Shown here piece by piece: positions 26,961-41,097 of a stretch of 43,471 nucleotides of DNA (the stretch's first letter is position 1; the number at the start of each line of letters is the position of its first letter). Position numbers and translations under genes: made by a program. The stretch spans positions 1-43,471 of the forward strand of contig DYMH01000017.1 in the NCBI GenBank assembly GCA_020721645.1, given 5' to 3'. The stretch comes from Draconibacterium orientale. Lineage in GTDB: Bacteria; Bacteroidota; Bacteroidia; Bacteroidales; JAADGE01. Under the pieces are notes generated by a model. It was not told the DNA's origin. It did no database searches and saw nothing but the letters and a program-made list of their open reading frames with translations.

Positions 26961-27000
26961 TAAAAAAAAGCCTCCATAAATTGAGGCTTTAATTTTTTTA
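26961..27000 (-). terminator. Terminator of the cohesin-repeat gene
   Basis: AAAAAGCCTC-cataaatt-GAGGCTTT. Confidence 0.75.
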
Positions 27001-30000
27001 TTGGATAATAATTTTTTTATTGATTGTCGTACCGTTTTTTCTTTTCAGTTGAACGAAATAGACACCCTGAGCTTGATTTTCAATGCCAATCGATTGATTT
27101 TCATTGTTCAACACGGTTTGATAACAGATTTTTCCTGCAATATCCGTCAGTGTTATTATTCCGCCAAGATTATTTTTCCCGCAGAGAATGGTGAAATTAT
27201 CGTAAGCCGGATTCGGAAAGACTGAAAAATCGAAATTTTCTTGGCTATCAATATTTGTTGATAATTTTTGAAATACCAATTCAAAACGATTTAAAAAGTC
27301 TCCTGTTGCGGTTTCAAACGAATATGCGGTTCCTGTTGGCATTTCAATGTATTTGTTTTCGGTAATATCGTGTAAATAAACTGTATAATTATCGAAATTA
27401 TTTTCAACACTCGTTATTTGATATTTTCCGTCTGTACCGAAATAAACGCCTAAAGGTATTATTTCAGCTTCGGTAAATTCGGGAAGTGAGTTTATTGCAT
27501 AAACTATTGTCTGTTCGTTGTTTACGGAATAAATTTGGGGTTTGGATTTATCCCAAGCAAACATTTTATAAGCATCGTATCGCGCATCGTGTTCGGTTGT
27601 AACATCTGTGGGTAAAGTACGAATTACAGTTTCATCGATAAAATCGCCTGTTGAGACATTAATTTTTATTAAATTCGGAATCCTTTCTGTCGATTTCCAA
27701 TACATTTGGTCATTGTGAGATTTTGCAGTAATTGGTATTGTAAATGTTGAAGCATGTGTCAATCCGGTATTTATCGTTTTTACCATGAATCCTTGCCCGG
27801 AGGGTGCGTAACGGGAACCGCCGTTTACTGATATACCCACGTTGTACGGGGGCAATTGAGTTCCGTCTCCGGATTGCATATAATATTTGTAATTTGAGCT
27901 CGCCCCATCGTAATAATAAATTCCGCTTTCAATCCCGTTCAAAATTACTTGATCCCAATCAAAAGACGACGAATACGGATTTCCGACCAAATTCCAACCG
28001 TCGAAATAATCTCTTGTTTGAGTTACCCCGTTTCCAATAACGACGGAACTTACCGAGTAATTCACATCAAACACTTTTTGATCAAATTCCAAATTCCCTC
28101 CGGTTTGAATATAATTTTTATCGGGCGAATTGTAACGATTAAATAAAAACCCTTTGTCGGTTCTTGTGTTGCCTGCTCCCACTTCCGAAGTCCAGCCCGA
28201 AGTTCCGTAAATGACTGTTGTATTCCAATAATCTTCATTGGCTTCGTTGTATGAATAAAAATTGTAATTTGTGTTCGCTCCTTCTGTTGTGAAAACAGTT
28301 TTTGGAATAGCATTTAATGAAGGAAACATCAAATGCCAACGATTTCCTGTAACAAATCTTTCAACAGTAGCCTCAACACCCGAATTGTTCAAAATCAAAG
28401 AACCATCACCGCTTGCATCTGATTTTACAATCAATCCCGCAGCTCCGACATTATTTGTCAGTGTTCCGCTTACGGTCATTTGTCCGTTTGTAGCGATTTG
28501 CACATTTGCACCGGCATCGATTGTCATGTTATGGCACACGGCAGTTGTTGCTCCATCATGGACGATTGGATAATTTGGGCATGAAGCCGGTATTACAATA
28601 TCATCGAGAGCGGTTGGAATGTTTTCGGGAGTCCAATTTGTAACATCTTGCCATTCGGAACTTGCGGAGCCGTCCCAAGAAATACAGATAATTACGCGAC
28701 CGTTATTCCAAGTTGCCGGAATTTCTTCGGGTATTGCATTGGATAACTCCCTTAAAGTAGGCGTATCCGACCAAATAACGGGTGCTATGCCGGTTGCTCC
28801 GGACAAGACATTAAAATTGGTATTAAAAAACAATCCGGAAACAATTTCAATTTCACTCGGATAATCGTTGTACGAAAAGGAAAGAGTCCCATTTGCGGCA
28901 TCATTGACAATAATCAGCTCAGCTGAGTTAACATCCGCATCCCAATCGGAACAATTAATGTAAGATAACCTTGTTTCGTCATAATCAATCGTCCACTGAA
29001 ACCCCACTAAACCGGTAACGCTTACCGCATTAACCGGAACCGAAACGGGCAAACCGGCAGTTCCGGATACTTCTTCGATTGTTAAAATAGGATTCGTGGG
29101 AACGGTTATCGTAACGCTGCCGTCAATCCATGTTGCAGAGATAGCGGCAGGAACGGAGTTCGACAATTCACGCAAGGTTGGTGTATCCGACCAGATTACA
29201 GGTGCTATGCCGGTTGCTCCTGCCAAAACATTAAAATTGATATTAAAAAACAATCCGGAAACAATTTCAATTTTATTCGGATAATCGTTGTAAACAATTG
29301 ATAATCTGCCATTTGTCGCATCATCAACAATATACAATTCAGTTAAATTAACACTTGCATCCCAATCGGAACAATTATTGTAAGATAACCTTGTTTCGTC
29401 ATAATCTACCGTAAACTGAAATCCGACCATATCCGTAACATTCGAGGCATTTACGGGAACTGTAACCGGTAAACCTGCAACGCCGTTCACATCGTCAATA
29501 TCTAAAACAGTTGCCGATGCAGGAGTAATTGTTACGCTGCCGTTGTTCCATAAAGCACCGATGACTTCGGGAACGGAATTCGATAATTCGCGCAAAGTGG
29601 GAGAATCAGACCAATCAACTGCTGCGGAGCCCGATGCACCTGCCGCGATGGTAAAATTGATGTCGAAATATTTTCCATCGGCAATATTTATCGTTGCGGG
29701 ATATTCATTATAGGCGAAAGTCAATTTTCCGTTCAGTGCATCGTTTACAACAATTACCGCACTCGAAACAACATCGCCATGCCAATTCGAGCAATTGACG
29801 TATGTTAATTTTGTTTCATCATAATCCACGGTAAACTGAAAACCGACCAAATCGGAAATATTTAACGCCGTAACAGGAACAGCGACACTTGCCCCGGCTA
29901 TTCCCGTTACATCGGAAATGCTCAACTCCGGCGAATTTATCGTAATTGTTCCGTTGTTCCAAGTTGTAGGAATTTCCGCAGGTACGGAATTATTCAAATA

Positions 30001-30540
30001 CCTTGAAGTCGGGTCATCTGTCCAAATTAATTCTGTTGTTCCTACAGCAGTCGATTTAATTTTAAAAGTGATATTAAAAAACAAACCTGCCGTTACATTT
30101 GTTCCTGATGCGGAGCTATACACGAAAGTAATTTTCCCCAACGTAGCCGGATTCAAAATATCGGGAGCAAGACCGCTGTACCAATCGCTGCAAGCGACAT
30201 ATTCCAGTTTTGTTTTGTCGTATTCTATTGTCCATTGATAGCCTGCCAAATCGGTAATATTCGACACGGAAACAGCAACTGTAACATTTTGTCCTTGATT
30301 TCCCGTTACATTTGCAAAAGTGAAAGTTGCGGGATTTTTGGGAGCTGAATATTGATAATTATTGAATGCCGGAGAATTAAAAATGATATTTTCTTGCCCG
30401 ATATTTTTGTTTTCCGTTTGGTAAACTAAAAATTTCTCGGGTATTTTTTCTTGTGAAAATTTTAACTGTGCGTTTGCCTGATAGAAAAAAAGCAAAGCAT
30501 ACAGTAAAAATTGATATTTTGTAATTATTTTTTTCATCAT
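26998..30540 (-). CDS. T9SS type A sorting-domain protein with four tandem cohesin-like modules
   Basis: Four ~140-aa repeats of the type (V/I)xDVxGxAGxxVxVPVxAxNVxDLVGFQFTVDYDETKLxYxNCSDW...LSFxYNDYP...SGxFFxINFxVxAGAxG...W(S/T)DxPTLRELSNSVPxxIxATWNNGxVTI; C-terminal FDFSVFPNPAYDNFTI...GVYFVQLKRKNGTTINKKIIIQ T9SS signal. Confidence 0.88.
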   Translation of the reverse strand: MMKKIITKYQFLLYALLFFYQANAQLKFSQEKIPEKFLVYQTENKNIGQENIIFNSPAFNNYQYSAPKNPATFTFANVTGNQGQNVTVAVSVSNITDLAGYQWTIEYDKTKLEYVACSDWYSGLAPDILNPATLGKITFVYSSASGTNVTAGLFFNITFKIKSTAVGTTELIWTDDPTSRYLNNSVPAEIPTTWNNGTITINSPELSISDVTGIAGASVAVPVTALNISDLVGFQFTVDYDETKLTYVNCSNWHGDVVSSAVIVVNDALNGKLTFAYNEYPATINIADGKYFDINFTIAAGASGSAAVDWSDSPTLRELSNSVPEVIGALWNNGSVTITPASATVLDIDDVNGVAGLPVTVPVNASNVTDMVGFQFTVDYDETRLSYNNCSDWDASVNLTELYIVDDATNGRLSIVYNDYPNKIEIVSGLFFNINFNVLAGATGIAPVIWSDTPTLRELSNSVPAAISATWIDGSVTITVPTNPILTIEEVSGTAGLPVSVPVNAVSVTGLVGFQWTIDYDETRLSYINCSDWDADVNSAELIIVNDAANGTLSFSYNDYPSEIEIVSGLFFNTNFNVLSGATGIAPVIWSDTPTLRELSNAIPEEIPATWNNGRVIICISWDGSASSEWQDVTNWTPENIPTALDDIVIPASCPNYPIVHDGATTAVCHNMTIDAGANVQIATNGQMTVSGTLTNNVGAAGLIVKSDASGDGSLILNNSGVEATVERFVTGNRWHLMFPSLNAIPKTVFTTEGANTNYNFYSYNEANEDYWNTTVIYGTSGWTSEVGAGNTRTDKGFLFNRYNSPDKNYIQTGGNLEFDQKVFDVNYSVSSVVIGNGVTQTRDYFDGWNLVGNPYSSSFDWDQVILNGIESGIYYYDGASSNYKYYMQSGDGTQLPPYNVGISVNGGSRYAPSGQGFMVKTINTGLTHASTFTIPITAKSHNDQMYWKSTERIPNLIKINVSTGDFIDETVIRTLPTDVTTEHDARYDAYKMFAWDKSKPQIYSVNNEQTIVYAINSLPEFTEAEIIPLGVYFGTDGKYQITSVENNFDNYTVYLHDITENKYIEMPTGTAYSFETATGDFLNRFELVFQKLSTNIDSQENFDFSVFPNPAYDNFTILCGKNNLGGIITLTDIAGKICYQTVLNNENQSIGIENQAQGVYFVQLKRKNGTTINKKIIIQ
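28685..30340 (-). repeat. Tandem cohesin-module coding repeat, four units of ~414-423 bp
   Basis: Unit ends recur at ~29941, ~29526, ~29106 and ~28686 (GTAATTGTTACGCTGCCGTTGTTCCA-type); modules 3 and 4 share long nucleotide identities such as GCATCCCAATCGGAACAATTA(A/T)TGTAAGATAACCTTGTTTCGTCATAATC. Confidence 0.88.
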
Positions 30541-30601
30541 TGAAGATATCGAGTTATCGATTTATAAGTTGATTAAATCGGCTTAGAGTATAAAAAATAA
30601 A

Positions 30602-30638
30602 AAATAGTTCGGACTCATAAAAAATCCGAACTATTTAT
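30602..30638. terminator. Strong 12-bp hairpin between the subtilase and cohesin-repeat genes
   Basis: AAATAGTTCGGA-ctcataaaaaa-TCCGAACTATTT. Confidence 0.8.
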
Positions 30639-30645
30639 AGAATAT

Positions 30646-33600
30646 TTATTTAACTACGGTAAATTTTCGAATGGCAATGTCATTATTTTTCGAAATTTTA
30701 AAATAGTATGTTCCTGCGGCAAGTTTTTCAATGTTGATTTTTTCGGTAATGTTATTGGAAGCGACCGTAATAACTTTATTTCCTGTTATTGTATAAATTT
30801 CAATTACGGAATTCTTAACATTCGTAACATTAATAAAACTATTTGCCGGATTCGGATACAAAACAATTTGGTCTTCTAATTTTTCGATGCTTGATGTACT
30901 CGGACTGAATGAAGGCATTCCGAAAGTGATGTTCGAAATAACATTGTCGTTATAATCACCAAATTCGCCGTGAATATTAGCCGAAAGTGCTGTTTCACCT
31001 GATAATTGACCAACGTAACCTTTAATTACCAGCAAATTATCATCAATTTCGTAATCAGAGGCATTTAAAGTTGAAAACATTATGCGTAAAACCCCATCGG
31101 ATACATTGAATAACATTTCGTTATTGTTATGTGCCATGCTCACTCCGATTATTTCAAATTCCTCGGTATTAAATGGTATAACCAATGTTACGGAAGACAA
31201 ATCCGAAATTTGAGTTTTCAAATTCACGGGTATCTCAAAATAATCACCTTCATCGGCAAGAATGGTTCCGATATTTTCAACGGGAATTGTTTCAAAAGAT
31301 TTAGTTCCGCCGAAGTAAGACGTGTTGCCATCGCCGTAGCAAATTGCTTGTACGTCTTTTGATACATTTGCTCCGCTTACCGTTAACGCTCCATCGGAAT
31401 ATGCCCAATTGCCTGCTGCAAATGATGAAATCATGGTAGCAATTCTTTGCAAAATCAGAGTCATATCAGCGGTATTCAAAGCACCGTCGGCATTGACATT
31501 TCCGGCAGTGAGTTTCAAACCGGAAAGTAATGTGATTCCACCAATATGTTTTTTATAAACCGTAACGTCCATCGAGGTAACACCCGACCATGCCAAGGCT
31601 ACATTTGGCGAAACACTGTAAGTACCGTCTGCAATGTTTGTAAATTCGTAATAACCGCCTGCATTAGTTGTAGCTGTGGCAACGACAGCGGGAACTGTGT
31701 TTTTCAATTCAACTGTTTCGTTATTCAAAACGGTTTGTGCAGTGTTATCATATTTCAAATAACCGGAAACCGTGTAGCCCGAAGCTCCGGTAACAGTAAC
31801 AGTAACGCTTTGGCATGTCGAAGTTCCGCAACCGTTTGTCCATGCTCCGTAGTATGTGGTTGTTGAAGTTGGGGAAACCGGACTTGTTACGACTGTACCA
31901 CCGCAAGAACCAGAGTACCAAACAAAACTATCACCTGAACCTCCTGAATAAGATAGTACAGAACTTTCACCACTTGCAATAGTTGAAGGTGTAGCAGTAA
32001 CTGATGTTGGGGCTGTTGGTAAAGGATTAACAATCATGTCAATTTGATTACTTGTTGCTGTAGTTGGACTTGCACAAGTAGCATTTGAAGTCATTACACA
32101 TGTTATAACATCGCCATTTACAGGTGTGTATGTATAAGTTGAATTTGTTGCTCCTGAAATATCAACGCCGCCTTTTTTCCACTGATAAGTTGGTGTGCCT
32201 CCGTTTGTTGGTGTTGCTGTATAGGTTACAGAACTTCCAGCACATGTTGGATTTGCATCGGCAGCTATACTTACACTTACGGCATTTGTAGCATTTACGG
32301 TAATTGTTATAGTATAATTAACGCTATTGCAACTTTCCGAACTTCTTGTAACCGTTAAATTTGCATTGTAAGTTCCGGCTGCAGCACCGCCCGGTACTGT
32401 TATTACAATAGGACTTGCAGGTAAAGCTGCTAATGTAACATCTGCAAAACCTTGTCCTTCGGCAGTTACATCAAAATCAATACTGTATTGGTCGGGTGTC
32501 TGGGTCGTTGCTGAGTAAGTTAAATCAGCTGTTGTTGTACCTTGACAAACACTTGGGTTTGAACCGAGCGTGATGGTTGGCGGAGTACATGCAACAGCAG
32601 TTTTTGAGGCTTGCAGTGTGTTTCCGTAGCAACCTTGATTTACGAAACCACCGTTTGGAACAGGTTCATTTGCAACGGTTCCCGTTGCTTTGTCAATTGA
32701 TGGCGAATTTAAAGATAAATCGTTTGTCCAAGTTCCGCCGGAAGCTGAGGTCGGCGGCCATGCACCGCCGTTGTATGAACCGGCTGTTGATTTTAAGTGA
32801 AAATCTGTTGTGGCATTGACAAATAACGGGTCGCTCGAAATATCGGAAGCTCCGCCGAAAGCAGCAACTGTTACAGCGGCAGCACCGTTATAAATTGGTG
32901 CAGCACCTGCATCGGTTGTGTAATAATTGTTGAATGAAGATGTTAGTGTATTACCGCCCGTATTTAATGCGTAATAATTTGCATTACCGGTTTTTGCGTA
33001 AGCAATGTTATTTTTAATTACAGTAGGCGTGCCTGATTCAACGTAAATGCCGGAACCTGTAATAACATCCGGTAAAAGATAATATATTTTTATTTGCCAT
33101 GATGATAATGTTCCTGTTGTTCCTGATGCATCATCATAAACTCTTAATCTCCAAGTACCATTACTTTGTTTTCCGATAAAACTAGATAATGTACCTTCCG
33201 GTTTATATGTACCTGTAAATGGAACTGTACCGGCAGTAATTAAAGTTGCGGCATCATCATCAAAATTTGTATTTGTGTAATTATTTCCGTTAGCACCATT
33301 ATCAGTACTTAATTCAACTTCAGTTGCATCAGGATGTTGTATATAAATATCTAGTTGGCTATCTGTACTATGAGTAATATTTAAACCCAACACTTCAATT
33401 TCTGTAATTGTTTGATTTATTGGCACATTAATATCAGCATAAACACTTGTTAAATCGCTAACAGTAACACTACCGGAAAATGAATATGTTGAAGATGTTT
33501 CTGAACCGGGCACAGAATTACCATTTCCATAAACCGTATTATTTTCAATAACAGCACCATTTGAAATAAGAATATGAATTCCATGAGTAGCATTGTTATA

Positions 33601-36600
33601 GCACAAGTTATTTTTTATAACAGAATTAAAACTTGCATTAATACCGGCAGCACTTGCGTTGTATGATTTGTTGTAGGAAATAATATTATCGGTTTCCTGA
33701 ATGTAAATATTATCGCTTGTAGCACCATAAACTGTAAAGCCGGTTAAGGTAGTGTAAGGTACATCAATATTAAAACCGTAAGTATTTCCGGTTGCATTAA
33801 CAATTGCGACTTCTCCTGTATGGTTTTGAATAACTAAGCGATTTGCAGAAGTCGGATTTAACGATGCAGAAGGAACAATTTGTTCGGCATAAGTACCGGC
33901 GTAAACGTCAATGGTTTTTGTTCCAGCAAGCTGTCCTGCATCGAAAGATGTTGCACCATACCACGCAAATAAACCGTCTAATGCACTTTGTATTGTGGTA
34001 TGATAATCAGTACCACCTCCAACAGGAATTGTATTACGGATTTGTAATGACATTGTGTATGTATCAGAACCACTTGCTGTTGTTACAGTTAAGGTATTAT
34101 TGGAATAAACGCCTGCGGGAAAAGTAGCAGATATTGAAGTTGCTGTATTTGTGTTGATTGTGGCTTCAATGCCTGCAATATTTACAGAAGTCGCATTTAA
34201 TAAATCAGTACCATCTATGGTTATTGTAGCACCTTTGTCTTTAAAGAAACTTGTAATACTTACACCTGTAATACTTGGTGGACCTGCAAGTGTAGTAAAA
34301 CTCACATTATCGCCGTAAGCAGTACCTGAGCTGTTGATTGCATAAGCTCTGACATAATATGTAGTGCTTGAAGTTAAAGGCGACATTAAAACACCTGAAA
34401 ACACACCTAATCCGGAACCTGAAATAACTTTGTTATCAGCAGTTGTCGGGTTAATAGTTGTTCTGTAAACAATACCACGTTCGGTAACAACACTTGAACC
34501 AATATTTGTAACTTCACCGCTACCATCTGCACTTGTTCCTGTAATTGATGCAACAGTTCCGGTTGTAACTTGTGGCAGTACAACAACAGAAGTATTTGAT
34601 ATATTAATATCATCTAACGTAGGAGCATAAGCATCTGTCATATTATATGAATGCCAACCTAAGTAATAAACATTGTCAGAAGGAACTGTAAATGTTTGTG
34701 TTTTTTGAACCCAACTAGTTGTGGGAGTATAAGCAGCAGTTAATGTTGTTGTCATTGAAGCTGCCGTAGGCGATGTACCAATGCATAATTTTATAGTTTC
34801 CGGTTTGGATTGAATCATTCTTACCCAGTATGAAACTGAATAATTTTGACCTGCTTTAAGATATAAACAAGGAGAATAAATCCAATCATTCGCATGTGAA
34901 TCTCCTGCTCCGGCAAACTGAATAGCAAACCCTGTTCCTGTATGTGCAAACCCTGCATCTTGATAAATATACCAAATTCCTTGTCCGCCATCACCATTAA
35001 CATCTTCTTGGCTCCAGCCGATAGCTTCTAAACTTCCGGCTTCAAAACTTGTAGAATAAGCATCTCCGGGAGTACTTAAATCAACATTAACGGGAGAATA
35101 TTGTCCTAAATAAGAGTTATTTGCACTATTTTCATCGCCTGTTACACTTAAATTTGTAGAAATTGTATAAATTTCGCCGTTTATTGACATATCTGCATAA
35201 ACAGTAGTTGTATTAGAATTACAAGCAGCAATACTTCCTATGGTATAATTTCCATTACCTACCAAAGAATTATCAGCTTTTCTAACTTCCCAAACAACCA
35301 AAACATTTGATAATGTGGTGCTACCTAAGTTTGCAACTTTAATGTCAATAGAAGTATTATTTGAATAATCGCAAGAAGTACCTTGTGGCTTTGCACTTAC
35401 AAGCGAAGCATCTGTAGTTGCTGACTTAATTCCTGTAACAATTAAAGTATAGTTTTGGGAAGCAGTTAATGTACCTTTATGAGAAACTGTAATTGTATAA
35501 ACAGTTCCGCAAGTTGGACTTGCAATGTTAATTCTTTCATAAGGGTCAACAATATTATCTCCGGTTGTGTTTGTTGTGATAGAAGTTAATTTGAAAGGAT
35601 AATATGTGCTTGCCGATTGAGTGATTCTGATATCTAGGTCATTTTTTAAAACAGGAGTTTTATCATTTGTGCCGGTTCTTAGAGTACCGGCAGGGTCTGT
35701 CCAGCATATTGAAGCTTTTAAATCTTCTATACCACTTGCTGTAACGTTGATATTGTAAGAACTACCTTGTGTTAAAGTTAATTCTCTAATAATAGTTTCA
35801 ACTTCATTATTAGTTATAGTTTCGGCTGCTTTTTTGGCATTTAGTAATCCCCAGCCATAAACAGCATCGGGTCCTGCAGTACCAGCGTCATCGGCGGTAT
35901 GAAGAACTAAACCTTTTAATGTAGCCGCACGCATATAATTAGCATAAAGAGAGTTGTAATACTGTTGTAAAATTAACAATGTACCTGTTGTATTTGGCGA
36001 AGCCATTGAGGTTCCTGTAATAGAAGCATAAATATCATCAGCGGTTTCATAAGTTGAGTATAATTCAGTGCCGTTTGCTGTTATATCGGGTTTAATTCTG
36101 TAATCGTCAGTTGGTCCTTCACTACTTGAAGAGTTAATCGTAACAGAAATTAATTCGCCACCTTCAATTGTAGCATCTTGAGCATTTGCAATAACGAGAT
36201 TATTTTTTGCAGTTGCATGTCCTGAAAGTTTATCGTATAAAGTATTCCCATCCAAAGGTACTCCATTAGAAGTATTATCATCACCATCGTTTCCTGCGGC
36301 AACTACCATAAGATAATATGGTGCATTATACATAATACCATCAAAATCAACGGCATCTTGTCCATATTGACCAAACCAACCATCTGGTATACCGCTTGCT
36401 ACATATCCGTAGGAGTGATTAGAAACCAACATTCCGGCTGCCGCTTCACTTGTAACCTCAGCAACATCATCGTTCCACTCATATCCTTTACAATATGCTT
36501 GCGGTGCCATACCTTTGGCGTTTGCCACAAAACCTGAAGCAATCATTGTTCCTGTTACGTGAGCTGCGTGGAAATTTAAGCCGGCATCCGGGTCGCTCGG

Positions 36601-37062
36601 GTCTAATATTGTTAATCTGTTAGTTCCTCCCGCACCATCATATTCTTGGTGAGTTGTTCGTCCGTGGCCACCATCCCAAATATAAGTAGTCATTCCTTGA
36701 CCTTCAATATTTAGACCTAAACCGCCACCGTTATGTAAAAAATTGGTTCTCGTGGATCTGGCAGCATCAACATTATTAGTAGAGTAATAGATTGGAGTAC
36801 CATCTTCGGTAACACGCATCAATGAAAAAAACCTTCCATTTTCGGTATATTTTTCTTTCAACCCTTTTTCACCAGCCAATTTAAGTGCTTTTGCTTTGTC
36901 TTCTTTTGCTTCTTTTTCTTTTTTTACCGCAAATTCCTTCAAAAAAGAAACATTAGTGTTAGAGATAATCCTCTGCCGCTCCGCATCGGTTTGTGCAAAA
37001 AGTGCCTGTCCTGCTATCATCAACGTCAATGACACAACAAGAGTAAAAATTTTTATTTTCAT
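30646..37062 (-). CDS. Giant (2138 aa) T9SS-exported S8 subtilisin-like protease with accessory adhesion modules and dockerin-like domain
   Basis: S8 motifs HAAHVTGTMIASG and GTSMASPNTTG; choice-of-anchor-J-like, IPT/TIG (PPSITGVSITSFFKDKGATITIDG), beta-helix, P-domain, Ig/PKD-like; dockerin-like SGVTSMDVTVYKKHIGGI...NVNADGALNTADMTLILQRI; C-terminal IVLYPNPANSFINV T9SS signal. Confidence 0.9.
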   Translation of the reverse strand: MKIKIFTLVVSLTLMIAGQALFAQTDAERQRIISNTNVSFLKEFAVKKEKEAKEDKAKALKLAGEKGLKEKYTENGRFFSLMRVTEDGTPIYYSTNNVDAARSTRTNFLHNGGGLGLNIEGQGMTTYIWDGGHGRTTHQEYDGAGGTNRLTILDPSDPDAGLNFHAAHVTGTMIASGFVANAKGMAPQAYCKGYEWNDDVAEVTSEAAAGMLVSNHSYGYVASGIPDGWFGQYGQDAVDFDGIMYNAPYYLMVVAAGNDGDDNTSNGVPLDGNTLYDKLSGHATAKNNLVIANAQDATIEGGELISVTINSSSSEGPTDDYRIKPDITANGTELYSTYETADDIYASITGTSMASPNTTGTLLILQQYYNSLYANYMRAATLKGLVLHTADDAGTAGPDAVYGWGLLNAKKAAETITNNEVETIIRELTLTQGSSYNINVTASGIEDLKASICWTDPAGTLRTGTNDKTPVLKNDLDIRITQSASTYYPFKLTSITTNTTGDNIVDPYERINIASPTCGTVYTITVSHKGTLTASQNYTLIVTGIKSATTDASLVSAKPQGTSCDYSNNTSIDIKVANLGSTTLSNVLVVWEVRKADNSLVGNGNYTIGSIAACNSNTTTVYADMSINGEIYTISTNLSVTGDENSANNSYLGQYSPVNVDLSTPGDAYSTSFEAGSLEAIGWSQEDVNGDGGQGIWYIYQDAGFAHTGTGFAIQFAGAGDSHANDWIYSPCLYLKAGQNYSVSYWVRMIQSKPETIKLCIGTSPTAASMTTTLTAAYTPTTSWVQKTQTFTVPSDNVYYLGWHSYNMTDAYAPTLDDINISNTSVVVLPQVTTGTVASITGTSADGSGEVTNIGSSVVTERGIVYRTTINPTTADNKVISGSGLGVFSGVLMSPLTSSTTYYVRAYAINSSGTAYGDNVSFTTLAGPPSITGVSITSFFKDKGATITIDGTDLLNATSVNIAGIEATINTNTATSISATFPAGVYSNNTLTVTTASGSDTYTMSLQIRNTIPVGGGTDYHTTIQSALDGLFAWYGATSFDAGQLAGTKTIDVYAGTYAEQIVPSASLNPTSANRLVIQNHTGEVAIVNATGNTYGFNIDVPYTTLTGFTVYGATSDNIYIQETDNIISYNKSYNASAAGINASFNSVIKNNLCYNNATHGIHILISNGAVIENNTVYGNGNSVPGSETSSTYSFSGSVTVSDLTSVYADINVPINQTITEIEVLGLNITHSTDSQLDIYIQHPDATEVELSTDNGANGNNYTNTNFDDDAATLITAGTVPFTGTYKPEGTLSSFIGKQSNGTWRLRVYDDASGTTGTLSSWQIKIYYLLPDVITGSGIYVESGTPTVIKNNIAYAKTGNANYYALNTGGNTLTSSFNNYYTTDAGAAPIYNGAAAVTVAAFGGASDISSDPLFVNATTDFHLKSTAGSYNGGAWPPTSASGGTWTNDLSLNSPSIDKATGTVANEPVPNGGFVNQGCYGNTLQASKTAVACTPPTITLGSNPSVCQGTTTADLTYSATTQTPDQYSIDFDVTAEGQGFADVTLAALPASPIVITVPGGAAAGTYNANLTVTRSSESCNSVNYTITITVNATNAVSVSIAADANPTCAGSSVTYTATPTNGGTPTYQWKKGGVDISGATNSTYTYTPVNGDVITCVMTSNATCASPTTATSNQIDMIVNPLPTAPTSVTATPSTIASGESSVLSYSGGSGDSFVWYSGSCGGTVVTSPVSPTSTTTYYGAWTNGCGTSTCQSVTVTVTGASGYTVSGYLKYDNTAQTVLNNETVELKNTVPAVVATATTNAGGYYEFTNIADGTYSVSPNVALAWSGVTSMDVTVYKKHIGGITLLSGLKLTAGNVNADGALNTADMTLILQRIATMISSFAAGNWAYSDGALTVSGANVSKDVQAICYGDGNTSYFGGTKSFETIPVENIGTILADEGDYFEIPVNLKTQISDLSSVTLVIPFNTEEFEIIGVSMAHNNNEMLFNVSDGVLRIMFSTLNASDYEIDDNLLVIKGYVGQLSGETALSANIHGEFGDYNDNVISNITFGMPSFSPSTSSIEKLEDQIVLYPNPANSFINVTNVKNSVIEIYTITGNKVITVASNNITEKINIEKLAAGTYYFKISKNNDIAIRKFTVVK

Positions 37063-40707: not shown

Positions 40708-41097
40708 ATGAAAAAATTCTTTTTATTCTCAGCATTAGCTGTTTTTGGCTTATTTGCCTGCAAACAACAATCAAAAGTATTGCAAACGGTTGAATCATCG
40801 AAGTTAACCGGACAAATGAAAGTAAAACTCGGTGAAACAGTGAAAATCAACCTGCGTTCTAACGCGTCAACAGGCTACGCTTGGGATTTGGGTCATAAAT
40901 TAGATAAAAATGTACTGGAATTTACCGAACGCGTGTTCGTTGAAGATGAGAATCCGGGCATGATGGTGGGTGTCGGCGGAATCGAAACATGGTCGTTCAA
41001 AGGCTTAAAAAAAGGCAAAGCATTTGTTCACATGGTATATGCCCGAGGCGACCAAGACCCAAAAGAAGAAAAAATTTATGAAGTAACGGTTGAGTGA
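40708..41097 (+). CDS. Chagasin-like (I42) protease-inhibitor-family lipoprotein
   Basis: Lipobox VFGLFAC; VKLGETVKINLRSNASTGYAWDL...GMMVGVGGIETWSFKGLKKGKAFVHMVYARG matches the NxxTGYxW and GxxGxxxW motifs. Confidence 0.88.
   Translation: MKKFFLFSALAVFGLFACKQQSKVLQTVESSKLTGQMKVKLGETVKINLRSNASTGYAWDLGHKLDKNVLEFTERVFVEDENPGMMVGVGGIETWSFKGLKKGKAFVHMVYARGDQDPKEEKIYEVTVE

Follow-up and report, generated by a model that had tools for sequence, protein, structure and literature searches.

The nearest described case to the gene pair reported here is 'Candidatus Stygibacter' (Cloacimonadota), for which passages of the published account (PMC8542988) present dockerin-bearing S8 and C25 peptidases together with a surface-attached tandem-cohesin protein, likewise inferred from metagenome-assembled genomes (MAGs) only. 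In Clostridium thermocellum, an S8 protease carries a double dockerin (dDoc_0689) that is thought to anchor the protease at the cell surface (PMC12484212). In a 2018 study, a Bacteroidetes MAG yielded neither cohesins nor dockerins, which its authors saw as in line with other genomes of Bacteroidetes (PMC5831590), and dockerins are listed for Bacteroidales single-cell genomes (PMC10266427). Here we analysed two adjoining genes, encoding a dockerin-bearing subtilase (the cargo) and a four-cohesin protein (the scaffold), on a contig of 43,471 nucleotides (DYMH01000017.1 of assembly GCA_020721645.1, deposited as Draconibacterium orientale). This entire contig (C134), called the window below, belongs to a 3.83 Mb MAG (97% complete) of an uncultured Bacteroidales. 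We consider it probable that the two proteins form a dedicated two-component complex on the outer surface, in which the dockerin would plug into the cohesins of its neighbour and thereby cluster the protease.

The original prediction, made from the window alone, had described two adjoining, co-oriented giant genes, an S8 protease, four tandem cohesin-like modules and sorting signals of the type IX secretion system (T9SS) on both proteins, and all of these were confirmed. Both genes are long open reading frames (ORFs) on the (-) strand, with the scaffold gene downstream of the cargo gene (Table 1). The 2138-aa protein contains a putative catalytic triad, D130/H168/S352, recognized by motif (WDGG, HVTGT, GTSMASP; the Asp falls outside the part aligned by Pfam), and the profile match together with these residues places it, as predicted from sequence, in Peptidase S8. 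Pfam Cohesin covers four stretches of the 1180-aa protein (whole-protein E-value 2.3e-57, 193.5 bits at a cut-off of 24.1); the modules are full-length, score 48.9–69.5 bits each and share 42–74% pairwise identity. Por_Secre_tail and TIGR04183 match each C-terminus, and with TIGR04183 above its cut-off and the T9SS machinery genes SprA and PorU found in the genome, both proteins classify as T9SS type-A cargo. No Pfam match to a carbohydrate-binding module (CBM) was found on the scaffold, and an undescribed CBM is possible within residues 620–1106, which have no assigned family. Regions similar to this stretch of ~490 residues (27223–28683) are present in the relatives L038 and L040.

The C-terminal part of the protease (residues ~1759–2138) is a unit that recurs as a block in other proteins and consists of an X-like module, a dockerin, a diverged cohesin-like module (CohL) and a T9SS tail; we refer to this unit as the cassette. 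The original prediction included neither the X-like module (before the dockerin) nor CohL (after it). A profile of 22 cassettes (X to CohL) matched solved dockerins (clostridial 1ohz, 2.6e-6; the S8-protease dockerin 8x3a, 9.5e-10), SdrD B domains (5e-8) and the Archaeoglobus fulgidus cohesin 2xdh (2e-7), the latter being the best solved match of CohL. AlphaFold2 modelled X and CohL of the cassette acceptably (pLDDT of X mostly 70–87), the predicted CohL structure returned 2xdh as top hit in Foldseek (TMt 0.70) along with clostridial cohesins, and profile–profile comparison (hhalign) of CohL with the scaffold cohesins gave an E-value of 2.5e-11. Because of these profile, model and hhalign matches, the protease bears both a dockerin and a cohesin homologue.

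Table 1. Features of the cargo and scaffold genes (positions in the window)
Feature	Position	Strand	Evidence
Cargo gene: secreted S8 subtilase, 2138 aa, C-terminal X-Doc-CohL-T9SS cassette	30646..37062	(-)	
Peptidase_S8 catalytic domain (Pfam residues 155-405)	35848..36600	(-)	PF00082 1.5e-24 (Pfam scan), triad motifs
IPT/TIG domain	34060..34278	(-)	PF01833 6.7e-7
Right-handed beta-helix stretch	33508..33753	(-)	PF13229 9.1e-7
P-domain (proprotein convertase type)	33085..33387	(-)	PF01483 3.3e-11
X-like prealbumin/SdrD_B/CarboxypepD-like module before dockerin	31597..31788	(-)	PF17210 4.4e-6, PF13620 8.2e-4
Dockerin (residues 1819-1922)	31297..31608	(-)	PF00404, PDB dockerins, invariance across 22 cassettes
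CohL, diverged cohesin-like module after dockerin	30877..31308	(-)	Profile, AlphaFold2 and Foldseek, hhalign
T9SS type-A C-terminal sorting domain of protease	30655..30861	(-)	PF18962 1.4e-10, TIGR04183 4.2e-10
Terminator-like 15-bp stem-loop with T-rich tail, between the two genes	30602..30636	(-)	Gap fold -22.8 kcal/mol
Scaffold gene, 1180 aa: four cohesins, ~490-residue region, T9SS tail	26998..30540	(-)	
Cohesin 1	29938..30327	(-)	PF00963 8.6e-19
Cohesin 2	29530..29928	(-)	PF00963 1.3e-14
Cohesin 3	29107..29505	(-)	PF00963 3.3e-16
Cohesin 4	28687..29085	(-)	PF00963 2.1e-12; A6 profile 2.6e-40
Scaffold region, residues 620-1106	27223..28683	(-)	No confident Pfam match
T9SS type-A C-terminal sorting domain of scaffold	27004..27222	(-)	PF18962 9.7e-12, TIGR04183 2.1e-10
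Terminator-like hairpin after scaffold gene	26967..26990	(-)	

The dockerin-like segment, which had been placed at residues ~1810–1890, is borderline by Pfam and is backed by the match of the 22-cassette profile to solved dockerins. Dockerin_1 (residues 1828–1874) reaches 18.3 bits for the whole protein, 22.7 bits for the isolated region and 23.1 bits in the genomic search (Pfam cut-off 22.9), and 25.9–38.6 bits in four relatives. The paired calcium-binding loops foreseen for this segment stand only in part: loop 2 is complete (NVNADGALNTAD), and the first half of loop 1 is missing from its place. Across the 22 cassettes, the second loop is near-canonical (D97-x-N99-x-S/D101...D108 in cassette numbering), the first repeat retains its second half only (GGVNATD, with D74 invariant), and a GDxNxS motif (G152-D153-x-N155-x-S157) found ~80 residues downstream is invariant or nearly so; the window counterparts are D1832 (loop position 12) and GDGNTS at 1910–1915. 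Putting the downstream motif ahead of the first repeat gives DVNASGGVNATD, which matches the loop 2 pattern. The joined motif and repeat fill the missing start of the Dockerin_1 profile and raise its score by 4–16 bits in all five cases tried (22.7 to 30.5, 38.6 to 54.8, 36.8 to 49.7, 30.3 to 45.9 and 25.9 to 30.2); because such a motif would lift any dockerin score, the exact spacing and the invariance are the informative part. The first calcium loop of the cargo dockerin thus seems to be completed by the GDxNxS motif, i.e. to be a split, circularly permuted loop. In L121 and L122, six residues are inserted into loop 2 of the dockerin (GDIISPATPPANPTLTAAD), and calcium binding should be disturbed as a result.

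These loops also bear on whether the modules dock at all. T9SS proteins commonly have repeated beta modules, and the window dockerin, near the Pfam threshold and with one degenerate calcium loop, could be read as an EF-hand-like stalk which, together with Ig-like cohesin folds, plays a purely structural role in giant surface proteins. We find this improbable: across the 22 diverse cassettes the residues of the calcium loops hardly vary, if at all, and the cassette and cohesin genes co-occur and adjoin (see below), a relation that purely structural spacers would not require.

Within this genome, the modules make up a closed set: one dockerin, four cohesins and, in addition, CohL. PF00963 and a lineage-specific profile each find four cohesins, all within the scaffold ORF; the PF00404 search of the genome gave no other credible dockerin, and a profile built for the other kind of dockerin, found on some scaffolds (described below), gave only noise. 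No second cassette copy was found in the genome, the remaining matches of the cassette profile being T9SS tails. A second dockerin candidate (L006, 12.7 bits) was rejected, because its sequence is that of a SusC-like porin with an EF-hand-like loop. Profile searches of the genome detected no cohesin or dockerin in other proteins with a T9SS tail, and the suggestion that the scaffold might hold further dockerin-bearing T9SS cargo of this genome was not borne out: the protease is the only dockerin cargo found. One dockerin against four cohesins is also what might be expected if the scaffold mainly captured dockerin proteins of neighbouring species, with the adjacent protease merely one ligand, and, by record title, a single sampling project is the source of two close relatives that share this pair. 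We hold this to be very unlikely: such cross-species capture is conjectural, and T9SS type-A proteins normally stay attached to their own cell.

The dedicated complex gains further support from relatives, in which the pairing recurs. Among 393 genomes of the order, the cassette was found in 59 and PF00963 in 107; a cohesin is present in 52 of the 59 cassette genomes as compared to 55 of the 334 others (Fisher p 4e-27, a value that overstates independence because the sampled genomes are related). For adjacency, we took the best cassette per genome in the 58 other genomes, unselected, which gave 45 large-cargo cassettes whose contigs extended far enough to be assessed. A co-oriented cohesin ORF lies less than 400 bp downstream in 31 of these 45 (mostly at -16 to +100 bp), covering ~24 families of the sample, and a cohesin ORF is as close upstream in 4 cases. 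Given ~10 cohesin genes per ~3500, the rate of chance adjacency is well below 1% (a rough count, not a simulation). In a 32nd case (G138), the next gene is another cassette gene whose sole cohesin is CohL. At a stricter threshold, 12 of 396 genomes in a phylum-wide sample contain the cassette. Closer to the window, a full cassette was found in only two of 21 family genomes (G000 and G002), both of which have a four-cohesin gene; in G002, which belongs to a different genus in the family, the end of a cassette protein is directly followed by a four-cohesin T9SS protein (on the same contig as L120). A scaffold fragment lies at a contig edge in G018. The cohesin–dockerin proteins of G019 are of a different kind; there (L039:3721-11037), single chains combine a cohesin, a two-loop dockerin and a following module, and the gene for a small S8-like peptidase is adjacent.

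The presence of CohL on the protease, overlooked in the original prediction, opens other topologies. CohL is a cohesin homologue immediately after the dockerin, and the two are nearly always fused, so the dockerin could pair with the adjoining CohL, in cis or between protease copies (giving homotypic chains), and leave the four-cohesin neighbour to serve other ligands. Stand-alone X-Doc-CohL-T9SS proteins of ~415 aa without an adjacent cohesin gene do exist (L124, L128, L129, L147, L151, L154, L156, L162 and L164). However, in four of the five stand-alone-cassette genomes without a Pfam cohesin match, the lineage-specific profile finds diverged cohesins (G096, G249, G302 and G320), so that only G199 (84% complete) has none by that profile, and cis pairing would leave the scaffold in our genome without any other dockerin and the recurrent adjacency unexplained. 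We therefore judge pairing with CohL unlikely, though less so than the other alternatives.

Under the preferred reading, docking between the neighbours, both proteins would cross the inner membrane by means of a signal peptide and the outer membrane through the T9SS, their tails and the machinery genes being present. The subtilase dockerin would then insert into one of the four cohesins at the surface, and up to four proteases could be gathered per scaffold; speculatively, CohL of the protease may bind another dockerin, yielding a longer or branched assembly. The conserved unit would be the cassette plus the following cohesin gene, with an exchangeable head, which here is a subtilase that presumably digests extracellular protein.

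The heads do vary. Pfam scans of 17 cargo proteins of relatives gave Kelch plus beta-helix, Laminin_G, PKD/Ig/SprB or unassigned heads, and reported no peptidase family in any of them; direct comparison nevertheless showed one of the 17, that of G193 (L099), to be a second dockerin-subtilase, truncated by the contig edge (9.5e-66). In L118, the cassette is 99% identical and the scaffold nearly identical, while the upstream cargo domains differ, for which reason the heads appear to be shuffled. Comparison of L118:3-1772 with window positions 30646-37062 showed that cohesin 3 differs locally too, a sign of module shuffling. Since cargo heads are usually adhesin-like, the protease is best seen as the head peculiar to this lineage within a broader system, and the original label of a protease scaffold is too narrow, most of the relatives' dockerin partners being adhesin-like (Kelch/beta-helix, Laminin_G, PKD/SprB). 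A chagasin-family (I42) peptidase inhibitor gene is located at 40708-41097 (+) of the window, 3.6 kb away from the protease gene.

Scaffolds vary as well. In L103, L104, L112, L114, L116, L117, L137, L149 and L155 the scaffold, four-cohesin in several of them, has no T9SS tail and finishes with a dockerin-like pair of EF hands (GDGN..D..W..GDFN..D..W..GxGxQVP), for which Pfam is above its cut-off in L104 and L155; the window scaffold bears its own T9SS tail in place of this second kind of dockerin. By analogy with the anchoring cohesin that holds CipA in clostridia, CohL on T9SS-anchored cargo could retain such scaffolds, serving as their anchor instead of a T9SS tail. The same EF-hand pair also ends further neighbouring ORFs in L116, L117, L153 and L155.

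Tentatively, these observations may be extended to a surface-assembly system across the order Bacteroidales, although we think such a generalization somewhat doubtful at present. It would consist of reciprocal T9SS gene pairs whose products self-assemble into an adhesive layer or coat on the cell surface, with heads that can be exchanged (the subtilase among them), the cargo having X, a split-loop (circularly permuted) dockerin, a cohesin and a T9SS tail, and the partner having 1–6 cohesins and ending in a T9SS tail or a second dockerin.

Several points weigh against a dedicated complex at this locus. The window dockerin scores near the Pfam cut-off, and AlphaFold gave it a pLDDT below 50 in the cassette model (mean 34 when modelled alone). 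Gaps in the MAG may hide further dockerin genes. As each protein has its own T9SS tail, docking is unnecessary for anchoring, and as cargo heads vary, the complex would not be dedicated to proteolysis. Because the two genes are separated by a terminator-like hairpin, co-transcription is uncertain and we do not claim a simple operon. The same intergenic hairpin is found in L118, different stem-loops occupy the gaps in L038 and L101, and in other relatives the cargo and scaffold ORFs almost touch or overlap; terminator-like matches are no more numerous in the region than in shuffles. In Clostridium cellulolyticum, cellulosome stoichiometry is reportedly set by intergenic stem-loops and RNA processing (PMC4423207), and by analogy a similar role is possible for the hairpin here. 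On balance, the surface complex first proposed is supported in part, by the pairing in ~24 families, by co-occurrence and by the closed set, and the binding itself we infer.

If the pairing is functional, a large Gram-negative order uses the plug-and-socket chemistry of the cellulosome with the T9SS, for cargo that is mostly adhesive or proteolytic. The order-wide pairing with many, mostly non-enzyme partners points to a widespread mode of surface-complex assembly that has hardly been described. The one-dockerin/four-cohesin system is directly testable, and may offer a split-loop dockerin and new orthogonal cohesin–dockerin pairs. In the literature searched on T9SS with cohesins or dockerins and on circularly permuted dockerins (subscription journals were outside its scope), the cassette–scaffold pair is not described.

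As compared to known systems, the pair shares with the clostridial cellulosome its cohesin and dockerin modules, an S8 protease as dockerin cargo and an X-like module before the dockerin, and the best solved match of the cassette, 8x3a, is (with 8x39) an S8-protease dockerin by title and match. It differs in using T9SS rather than SLH or sortase anchoring, in having a single dockerin gene, and in a cargo with its own cohesin. A multi-cohesin scaffoldin is present, but no carbohydrate enzymes or CBMs were found on the two proteins; since dockerin-bearing carbohydrate-active enzymes (several of which a cellulosome has) and a scaffoldin CBM were looked for and not found, the pair is not a cellulosome. 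'Ca. Stygibacter' belongs to another phylum, and the passages of its account (PMC8542988) describe a 3755-aa scaffoldin with CBM2/CBM3 and several dockerin enzymes (including GH18 and GH57); gene adjacency, the X-Doc-CohL cassette and a cargo-borne cohesin are not described in them. The non-cellulosomal A. fulgidus cohesin, the top solved cohesin for CohL by both sequence and fold, is archaeal, with no T9SS and with other partner proteins. The two proteins resemble T9SS type-A surface proteins in their signal-peptide-like start, giant multi-domain chain and TIGR04183 tail, and judging from their modules the pair would work like a small non-cellulosomal cohesin–dockerin complex on a T9SS surface.

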